Origin: Clostridiaceae bacterium | Lineage (GTDB): Bacteria > Bacillota > Clostridia > Peptostreptococcales > T1SED10-28 | Assembly: GCA_003554105.1 (NCBI GenBank) | Contig: PWFQ01000006.1 | Location: forward strand, 67,036-131,035 | Length of the DNA: 64,000 nt | Direction: 5' to 3' | Part shown: piece by piece, positions 61,162 through 64,000 of the stretch | How positions within the stretch are numbered: position 1 is the first letter of the stretch | How the letters are laid out: every line of letters begins with the position of its first letter | Made by a program: the position numbers and the translations under genes | Notes under the pieces: model-generated | The model's input: the letters and a program-made list of their open reading frames with translations, nothing else | Told to the model about the DNA's origin: nothing | Databases searched by the model: none

Positions 61162-62691
61162 TCAGGGCTGATAAGCAAAATTCCGATATTGGAGAGCTTC
61201 CAAAATATGACGTTCTTCGATTTCCGGAGTCTCCTCCAGGTCTGCAATGGTCCGACTTACTTTAAGAAGTTTATGATAGCTCCGGGGGGTAAATTTCATT
61301 TGATCGTAGGCTTTTTCCAAAAGGTGTCGGCTGTTATCATTGAGACGCAGAATCTCATCGTTGAGATGAGGAGGGATCCGACTGTTTACCTCAAAGGGGT
61401 ACTCCTGATAACGATGAGCCTGCAGGGTCCGGCCCTTCAGTACATCTTTTGCCATGGTTTCACTGCTAAGACCATCTTTCATCGTGGAATCCTGAAGGTC
61501 ACTGAAGCTTCCCCGGGGGACTTCGATAATCAGATCAATACGGTCTAATAAAGGTCCTGAGAGTTTTTGCTGGTAGCGCAGGATCTCCGGTGCCGAGCAG
61601 GTGCATTCCTTGACAGGATCTCCATAATACCCGCAGGGACAGGGATTCATTGCAGCCACGAAAAGAAAATCTGCAGGGTAGGTATAGGAACGATGGGAGC
61701 GGGAAAGGGTGATTTTATGATCCTCAAGGGGCTGTCGAAGAATCTCAAGGGCCCGTTTGTCAAATTCCGGGAGTTCATCAAGGAACAGAACTCCGTGATG
61801 GGCAAGGGAAATTTCTCCCGGCATGGGTCTTAAACCTCCGCCGGATAAGGAAACGGCAGTGGAGGTATTATGAGGGCTTCGGAAAGGAGGCTGAAGAAGA
61901 AGCCCGGTCTCGTCAAAAAGCTTTCCCGAAATGCTGTAGATCTTTGTGACCTCTATGGATTTTTTTGCGGAAAGAGGCGGAAGAATGGAAGGAATCCGCT
62001 TTGCCGCCATGGATTTGCCCGATCCCGGCGGACCGATCATTAAAACATTGTGAAGACCTGCAGCTGCGATCACCATTCCCCGTTTTAGGGACTCCTGACC
62101 TTTGATTTCAGCGTAATTCGGAAGTGGAAGATCTGTATGAACCGACGGGTTGGAAGGAATAGCCCTCTGCTCATCCCGTATTTCTCCATCCACGATATAG
62201 GTAATCACCGAAGAGAGGTTTTTGAAGCCCAGAACCTCCATCCCATTCACGTTGCCGCCCTCGGGCAGATTCCTATGGGGGATAAGGGCTTTTTTATAGC
62301 CCCGGTTTTTCATTTCCAACAGCATGGGAAGGATTCCGGTGACACCGTTGATTCCACCGTCCAAAGAAAGTTCTCCGATGACAACGGTATCATCCTCCAG
62401 CAGGGGCGGGATTTGCCCGGATCCCTGTAAAATTCCCAGGGCAATGGGAAGGTCGAAATGGGAACCCTCCTTGCGGTTAAAGGCGGGGGCAAGATTAACC
62501 GTGATCCGCTTCATGGGAAACTCATAATCAAGATTTTTAATGGCCGAGCGAACACGGTCCTTGGATTCTTTAACGGAGACCGTGGGAAGCCCCACAATCA
62601 GAACTACAGGCAATCCTAAATCAAGATCCACCTCAACGTTGATGGGATAGACCTCCAAACCTTCGATACAGCAGGATTTAACGATTTCCAT
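61162..62691 (-). CDS. comM: YifB/ComM family Mg-chelatase-like AAA ATPase
   Basis: 509 residues: N-terminal Lon-like (ChlI) domain (about 1-165; EIVKSCCIEGLEVYPINVEVD, VGLPTVSVKESKDRVRSAI), AAA domain with P-loop GPPGSGKSMAAKRIP and Walker B HHGVLFLDELPEF, a zinc-like CPCGYYGDPVKECTC, and a C-terminal Mg chelatase-like domain. Known ComM proteins are helicases that extend branch migration in natural transformation. Start at ATG 62691; an upstream in-frame ATG at 62715 puts the ribosome site inside the gene. Confidence 0.94.
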   Translation of the reverse strand: MEIVKSCCIEGLEVYPINVEVDLDLGLPVVLIVGLPTVSVKESKDRVRSAIKNLDYEFPMKRITVNLAPAFNRKEGSHFDLPIALGILQGSGQIPPLLEDDTVVIGELSLDGGINGVTGILPMLLEMKNRGYKKALIPHRNLPEGGNVNGMEVLGFKNLSSVITYIVDGEIRDEQRAIPSNPSVHTDLPLPNYAEIKGQESLKRGMVIAAAGLHNVLMIGPPGSGKSMAAKRIPSILPPLSAKKSIEVTKIYSISGKLFDETGLLLQPPFRSPHNTSTAVSLSGGGLRPMPGEISLAHHGVLFLDELPEFDKRALEILRQPLEDHKITLSRSHRSYTYPADFLFVAAMNPCPCGYYGDPVKECTCSAPEILRYQQKLSGPLLDRIDLIIEVPRGSFSDLQDSTMKDGLSSETMAKDVLKGRTLQAHRYQEYPFEVNSRIPPHLNDEILRLNDNSRHLLEKAYDQMKFTPRSYHKLLKVSRTIADLEETPEIEERHILEALQYRNFAYQP

Positions 62692-62880
62692 GGACTTACC
62701 CCTCTCCTCTGTCATCTTTTAAGCAAAAATACACCCATAATGTATTCGACACAAAAAAGGAGATCTCCTGCAAAAGTTAATAATCATTGAAGTTCAACCA
62801 TAATAAGGAAATGTTTAAGGGAAATGTCCATTGGGTAAAAAGAGAAGGATTTAACAGTCTTCCTGCATTTAACACATTAT
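62692..62880. other. Intergenic region upstream of comM and the aminomutase promoter
   Basis: No gene seen. It contains a ten-base palindrome GGAGATCTCC (62759-62768), a possible weak comM promoter on the reverse strand (TTGTGT, 17 bases, TATTTT, about 62752-62724), and two direct copies of ATTTAACA at 62849-62856 and 62867-62874, 18 bases apart, just before the -35 of the next promoter. Confidence 0.4.
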
Positions 62881-62909
62881 TTGACAGATAAAAAGGGGTA
62901 TGCTAACAT
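62881..62909 (+). promoter_or_regulatory. Strong promoter upstream of the aminomutase gene
   Basis: TTGACA (62881-62886, perfect), 17-base spacer ending TGC, TAACAT (62904-62909): consensus -35 with TGn extended -10. Start near 62916, so the transcript has about 210 bases before the coding start at 63126. Confidence 0.8.
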
Positions 62910-63018
62910 ATATTTTTATAAGAGTCTATCATACTTCTCCGGGTTTTCTGCGAATATTCATCTCGCTTGCCGTACATTGCAAGAATCCCTATATACATGC
63001 AAAATTCAAACGATTGTA

Positions 63019-63050
63019 AGATTCGTGGCATCTTAGGCCCGATCTTTTTT
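63019..63050 (+). terminator. Intrinsic terminator inside the aminomutase leader
   Basis: AGAT-CG-GGC (with single bulged T at 63023 and 63026) pairs with GCC-CG-ATCT around ATCTTAG, then five T (63046-63050). It lies about 100-135 bases after the predicted start and 76 before the gene. Either an attenuator of the gene or the end of a small RNA. Confidence 0.6.
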
Positions 63051-63125
63051 ACGGATTATTGAAGGTGGATATCCGAGAATATCGCGGAGGGAGCAACCTA
63101 TAGAACTACTAAAGGAGGAGATCAC

Positions 63126-64000
63126 TTGAGCTGCAATACAAGTTCTAAAAGCAGAGAAATTTCATTAAAGCGTGCGGAAGAATTGCATTCCCGCATTGAA
63201 GATTATTTAAAGGTAAAAGATCATATCCCAAAGGGAGCATCGGAGAAGCAGCTAAAAACTTCACTGGAGAAAAAGGAAAAGATGCTGAAGATGTTCAACG
63301 CTACGGAAGAGGACTGGAAGAGCTGGCAGTGGCAGCTGAAAAGCCGAATTTCCGATGTGGATGTTCTAAAGGAGATCATCCGTTTATCCGAGAAGGAAAT
63401 CGAAGACATCCGAAAGGTGGGGGAGAAATTTCGATGGTCCGTCTCTCCCTATTACGCATCTCTGATCGATGACGATAATAAATATTGTCCCGTCAAATTA
63501 ATGTCGATTCCCAGCGGTGTGGAAATTGAAGATCTTGAAGGGGATTCCGACCCAATGGGAGAGGAGTTTACCAACCCTGCAGGGTCCATTACAAGACGTT
63601 ACCCCGATCGCTTGATTATTAACGTGACGAATGAGTGTGCCATGTACTGTCGACATTGTCAACGTCGACGGAACATCGGAGGCATGGATCAGCACCAGCC
63701 TAGAGAAATATTGCAGGAATCCATCGACTATATCCGCGACAATCCGGAAATTCGCGACGTTCTCATTACCGGCGGAGATCCTTTAACCCTTTCGAACAGT
63801 ATGCTGGATTGGCTGTTGAAGGAAGTCACAAGCATTGAAACGGTGGATTATGTCCGTCTGGGAAGCCGTACATTGGTGACAATGCCTCAGCGTGTGGACG
63901 ACGAGTTCATTGAAATGATGGAAAAATATTCACCGGTGTTTATCAACACCCACTTCAATCATCCTCAGGAAATTACCCCGGAAGCAGTTGAAGCATGCCA
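63126..64000 (+). CDS. Glutamate 2,3-aminomutase-like radical SAM enzyme, N-terminal part
   Basis: Lysine/glutamate 2,3-aminomutase family: radical SAM plus pyridoxal phosphate enzymes that move the amino group from carbon 2 to 3, giving beta-amino acids. 291 codons are present before the right edge. Iron-sulfur motif CAMYCRHC (C171, C175, C178) in INVTNECAMYCRHCQRRRNIGG, then DVLITGGDPLTL and RLGSRTLVTMPQRV. The N-terminus (SSKSREISLKRAEELHSRIEDYL, in part) resembles glutamate 2,3-aminomutase of Clostridioides more than lysine aminomutase as I recall it, but the residues that fix substrate lie past the edge. Start is TTG at 63126 with AGGAGG seven bases before. Confidence 0.88.
   Translation, partial: MSCNTSSKSREISLKRAEELHSRIEDYLKVKDHIPKGASEKQLKTSLEKKEKMLKMFNATEEDWKSWQWQLKSRISDVDVLKEIIRLSEKEIEDIRKVGEKFRWSVSPYYASLIDDDNKYCPVKLMSIPSGVEIEDLEGDSDPMGEEFTNPAGSITRRYPDRLIINVTNECAMYCRHCQRRRNIGGMDQHQPREILQESIDYIRDNPEIRDVLITGGDPLTLSNSMLDWLLKEVTSIETVDYVRLGSRTLVTMPQRVDDEFIEMMEKYSPVFINTHFNHPQEITPEAVEAC

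Follow-up and report, generated by a model that had tools for sequence, protein, structure and literature searches.

In some translational riboswitches, a basal helix (P1) competes with an anti-Shine-Dalgarno strand. To our knowledge, the control of beta-glutamate synthesis in bacteria that use this compound as a salt protectant is largely unknown, the known case being the Na+-I riboswitch. Beta-glutamate is a compatible solute (PMC1224877), and the genes eam and ablA are reportedly preceded by Na+-I riboswitches (PMC9337991). A compact eam leader whose base pairs can be tested would add to this another, independent way of controlling an osmolyte pathway by RNA, and would allow a direct search for the ligand.

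The eam locus and its leader

The window, that is, the whole 64,000-nt stretch of DNA that was analysed, was from Clostridiaceae bacterium GCA_003554105.1 (contig PWFQ01000006.1, positions 67,036-131,035 of the forward strand; genome G000, 80% complete). Among five family relatives of this genome, four (G001-G004; G004 is also about 80% complete) contained eam together with its upstream region, whereas in the fifth a contig end cut the locus. The leader comparison thus comprised five sequences, those of the window and G001-G004, four of them from one genus (the sister genus).

The aminomutase gene that the original prediction had placed after the leader was identified as eam, encoding glutamate 2,3-aminomutase: the TTG start was present at 63126, and the best NCBIfam model for the 291 residues inside the window was TIGR04368 (E 2e-135). 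This gene is probably one that makes a salt-protecting compound. Its protein was 86-88% identical between the window and the four relatives. A yifB-like gene (61162-62715, minus strand) was located upstream of eam in divergent orientation, and the contig open reading frames downstream of eam are presumably dprA, topA and codY. Gene order around eam was identical in one sister-genus genome. The following features of the locus were considered.

62881-62909, plus strand: promoter TTGACA-17-TAACAT with extended -10 (TG); 10/12 matches, kept in the four relatives
62915-63125, plus strand: untranslated eam leader of ~210 bases, conserved in relatives; start inferred from the promoter position
62935-62965, plus strand: 5' strand of helix P1, containing CTTCTCC (itself at 62934-62940); 0/500 shuffles, same place in relatives
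62977-63002, plus strand: hairpin B, formed by TTGCA (62977-62981), a 16-nt loop and TGCAA (62998-63002); model match
62996-63011, plus strand: invariant block CATGCAAAATTCAAAC, conserved in relatives
63018-63050, plus strand: terminator-like hairpin followed by U6, enclosed by P1; specific to the window and absent in relatives
63060-63091, plus strand: 3' strand of P1, containing GGAGGGA (63086-63092); predicted to pair with 62935-62965
63114-63120, plus strand: ribosome-binding site GGAGGAG; letters checked
63126-64000 and past the window end, plus strand: eam, TTG start, 424 aa in the contig

The near-consensus promoter was present as it had been described, with TG before the second hexamer, and the form TTGACA-N17-TGCTAA(C/T)AT was common to all five leaders. 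The relatives kept the -35 and -10 elements as well as a block of 26 bases surrounding the start site. Neither the spacer separating yifB from the promoter nor the region 63021-63060 was conserved. Within the otherwise unconserved spacer, a short conserved block was found at 62736-62752, just upstream of the divergent yifB (GTATTCGACA in the window, ATATTCGCC in relatives).

Conserved blocks and the long-range helix P1

Conserved blocks of the five leaders were CTTYTC, TTTTCTRC, TTGCAAGA and CATGCAANATTCAAA, and their spacing was fixed: 10 nt from CTTYTC to TTTTCTRC, 32-33 nt from there to TTGCAAGA and a further 19 nt to CATGCAANATTCAAA. The bases between the last two blocks were free to vary despite the fixed 19-nt offset. 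In the window genome and the four relatives, the block motif occurred in one copy per genome, at eam only. The loop length of hairpin B was constant across the five genomes, and this hairpin was the only part recovered when the sister-genus model was applied to the window (best match, 25 bits). Hairpin B showed no covariation and had a low probability in three leaders. A possible pseudoknot between its pyrimidine-rich loop and the AGAGG/GGAGGG strand was noted by eye as a candidate in all five leaders.

The strongest structural feature was the long-range helix P1, which was absent from the original prediction and encloses the terminator region. In the window, most of its pairs had probabilities of 0.8-0.98. 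The largest long-range contact anywhere in the window leader was matched by none of 500 dinucleotide shuffles; for the relatives, the corresponding contact was matched by 4, 20, 64 and 160 of 500 shuffles, and two of the five leaders were therefore not significant in this zone-free test (64/500 and 160/500). The position of the strongest long-range contact did not differ among the five leaders, and the contact was strong in the window and two relatives. When the zones were fixed, the expected numbers of pairs were 22.5, 14.5, 19.0, 18.7 and 11.9 in the five leaders versus 1.1-1.3 in shuffles, with zones that had been chosen after the folds were seen; for this reason, the zone-free test is the fairer one.

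Comparison of the 5' arm of P1 between the window and relative G2 revealed that 17 of 27 positions were identical and 10 differed. Considering that the 5' arms had diverged yet the contact was kept at the same place, the pairing of P1 appears to outlast sequence change. Because P1 in the window uses a different register from that in the relatives, few pairs could be counted as compensatory. The check for compensatory changes in homologous leaders that had been proposed for the terminator stem found that this stem was absent from them; in P1, RNAalifold with the five leaders gave double changes in 5 of 47 pairs, with a slightly unfavourable covariation term. In the sister genus, six of seven helix changes kept pairing, which was not significant under a stricter null (P 0.13). 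A basal helix closing a domain was conserved in the comparison of the five leaders, and the folding models make RNA structure in the eam leader likely.

The complementarity of CTTCTCC to the ribosome site was confirmed, and since a CTTTTC counterpart occurred at the same place in all relatives, this complementarity may matter. CTTCTCC could pair with either of two sequences, GGAGGGA in the 3' strand of P1 or GGAGGAG of the ribosome site. Forcing the ribosome site onto CTTYTC cost 2.8 kcal/mol in the window and 0, 3.6, 1.1 and 1.4 kcal/mol in the relatives. Because the two computed folds are 0-3.6 kcal/mol apart, a translational switch through partner exchange of CTTYTC is our best guess, with the chances about evenly balanced. 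We only infer this switching, since in ensemble folding the pairing of the ribosome site showed no excess over shuffled leaders and was lower than in shuffles in four of the five.

According to this guess, the domain of ~100 bases that P1 closes, with hairpin B and the invariant CATGCAAAATTCAAAC inside it, might act as the sensor of a small molecule, an ion or a protein. The CTTYTC strand would swap partners. With P1 closed, it would pair in the window with GGAGGGA, so that GGAGGAG of the ribosome site stays free; the alternative fold would have it cover the ribosome site, with less translation from the weak TTG start. The likely physiological input would be salt or nitrogen status, because of the role of beta-glutamate as a compatible solute, and the original suggestion of a salt- or glutamate-responsive RNA remains a reasonable guess in view of this solute and of the Na+-I riboswitches reported before eam elsewhere. 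In the window genome alone, the terminator-like hairpin that the domain contains could provide transcription attenuation as well.

Comparison and folding showed a conserved promoter, invariant blocks at fixed spacing and, in the folding models, P1 closing a domain of ~100 bases. Our leading reading, held with roughly even confidence, is that the mRNA for glutamate 2,3-aminomutase begins with a structured leader RNA acting in cis, with the proposed sensor domain and CTTYTC partner swap. The leader is probably an unrecognised on/off control element, and it was filed as a candidate leader RNA of the cis-regulatory kind, outside any named class.

Alternative explanations of the leader

The main rival to a structured leader RNA is that a transcription factor binds the conserved blocks as DNA operators lying within the transcribed region, the RNA fold being incidental. 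This is unlikely in our estimate, although TTTGCAAG...CATGCAAA form an inverted repeat whose arm centres are about 20 bp apart, and an unchanging 19-nt offset around variable sequence would suit such a site. Other families also had an excess of TTGCATT-like sites upstream of eam (17, versus 19 in other non-coding DNA of ~6x the amount; ratio 5.2, p 3e-6, for a motif picked after those loci had been viewed), and CTTGCAWWT occurred 8 times upstream of eam versus once in ~6x other non-coding DNA. However, the enriched motif was selected after inspection of the same eam loci, and by our own reading the TTGCAT of several families is the -35 hexamer itself, 16-17 nt from TATAAT. A de novo motif search performed no better than on control intergenic DNA, no second copy of the motif was found in the five genomes, and operator sites would not account for a long-range helix that recurs at one position in all five leaders.

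Promoters at other eam loci had features of their own. In five of them, belonging to several families, an unusual -35 box, CTTGCATTT, was located 16-17 nt before TATAAT, and some promoters with this box had a second CTTGCATT 30-40 bp upstream, a copy whose position suggests an activator or operator site at eam.

It is quite unlikely that the leader has no regulatory role and, as a long untranslated region with a stable fold, simply protects the mRNA or keeps translation at a constant level. Such a role would agree with a ribosome site that is not specially hidden, with the ordinary fold energy of the whole leader (z 0.5 for 62915-63053 and -0.2 for 62915-63150) and with the many other clostridial eam genes that have long leaders and no known RNA. 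The invariant, unpaired-looking blocks at fixed spacing, however, exceed the needs of a generic stabiliser. In ten other clostridial eam loci, the leaders seemed to be long, ~150-260 nt after a good promoter, and were strikingly G-poor (G often 7-10%, C 12-15%); no common sequence motif and no Rfam match were found in this set. In two genomes from Lacrimispora and relatives, the stretch of the eam 5' region from GTTGTTTCTT to AGGAGAA was ~200 bases longer than in three congeners, as if an element had been inserted in the leader. In Alkalithermobacter, a raiA RNA was located divergently just upstream of eam (locus L062, 2587-2790, minus strand).

The more specific proposal of a new, narrowly distributed riboswitch class of halophilic clostridia, which would sense salt, an ion, glutamate or beta-glutamate and switch eam translation by having P1 and the ribosome site compete, likewise seems to us quite improbable. 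Outside the family, the leader motif was found neither in samples of the order (~250-300 genomes) nor in samples of the class (391 genomes) when an exact pattern and a covariance model were used, and weak matches at four loci were discarded since they were in coding sequence or lacked the core. The motif was also not found at 91 other eam loci or, in one scan, in viral contigs.

Transcription attenuation, with 63018-63050 as the terminator and GAATC/GATTC as the anti-terminator, is very unlikely. The hairpin is there: the unit of -9.1 kcal/mol with U6, ending at 63050, was equalled by none of 1000 shuffled leaders and is thus rarer than expected by chance in such a leader. The letters of the CTTGC (62966-62970)/GCAAG (62979-62983) pairing and of GAATC (62983-62987), predicted to pair with GATTC, are present as well. 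However, the terminator stem and both pairings were missing from all four relatives, where the core of the hairpin corresponded to a 21-base gap and the region holding it was the least conserved part of the leader. The stem has two bulges, and its probability was just 0.2-0.4 in RNA ending at 63050; the unit ranked about the middle among the hairpin-plus-T units of the window and was missing from an automated terminator scan of it. Because these elements are not common to the family, the attenuator reading is weakened: of the attenuated leader or riboswitch originally predicted, a conserved, structured and possibly regulatory leader was retained, whereas the terminator/anti-terminator mechanism is not supported, both of its parts occurring in the window genome only. 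The alternative of a separate RNA of ~135 bases ending at the terminator is disfavoured, since none of the four relatives has this terminator, which is private to the window genome.

That the leader is a divergent version of a riboswitch class already described (Na+-I, c-di-AMP, lysine or another) is extremely improbable. Some bacteria do have a Na+-I riboswitch ahead of eam (PMC9337991), but there was no Rfam match in the window or relatives, no covariance match to the Na+-I riboswitch (RF03071) in 41 genomes (that of the window and 40 related ones) and no c-di-AMP riboswitch (RF00379) in the window or family. Rfam 15 (4227 families) gave zero matches at gathering score in the window, in agreement with the earlier statement that no lysine, T-box, SAM, c-di-GMP, c-di-AMP or guanidine class was recognised; a relaxed search of the window (E up to 5) gave nothing credible, the best E of 0.2 being far below gathering score. 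The leaders of the four relatives had no Rfam match, and no Rfam family was found on the eam leader at 60 further eam loci.

Three other candidates were rejected. For a leader peptide, the frames LQESLYTCKIQTIVRFVAS and MQNSNDCK... had no ribosome site and varied in length. For CsrA, csrA was found in G001 but not in G000 or G002-G004, of which G000 and G004 are about 80% complete. A CodY box in GGTTTTCTGC... was dropped because it had ~4-5 mismatches in 15 positions by eye.

Comparison with described systems

Like leaders controlled by intrinsic-terminator attenuation, the window leader has a hairpin and a U-run before the gene; unlike in those leaders, the terminator and anti-terminator are not conserved in its relatives. 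The likeness to the Na+-I riboswitch (DUF1646 motif, RF03071) lies in the position before a salt-related aminomutase gene, eam and ablA being osmolyte genes (PMC9337991). However, RF03071 is a 55-position two-helix RNA, to which the window leader had no covariance match. Compared with translational riboswitches, the ribosome site in the window is not measurably hidden in the ensemble and the ligand is hypothetical, whereas the leader shares with them a closed domain, unpaired blocks that are conserved and a strand for which pairing in P1 and pairing with the ribosome site differ little in cost.
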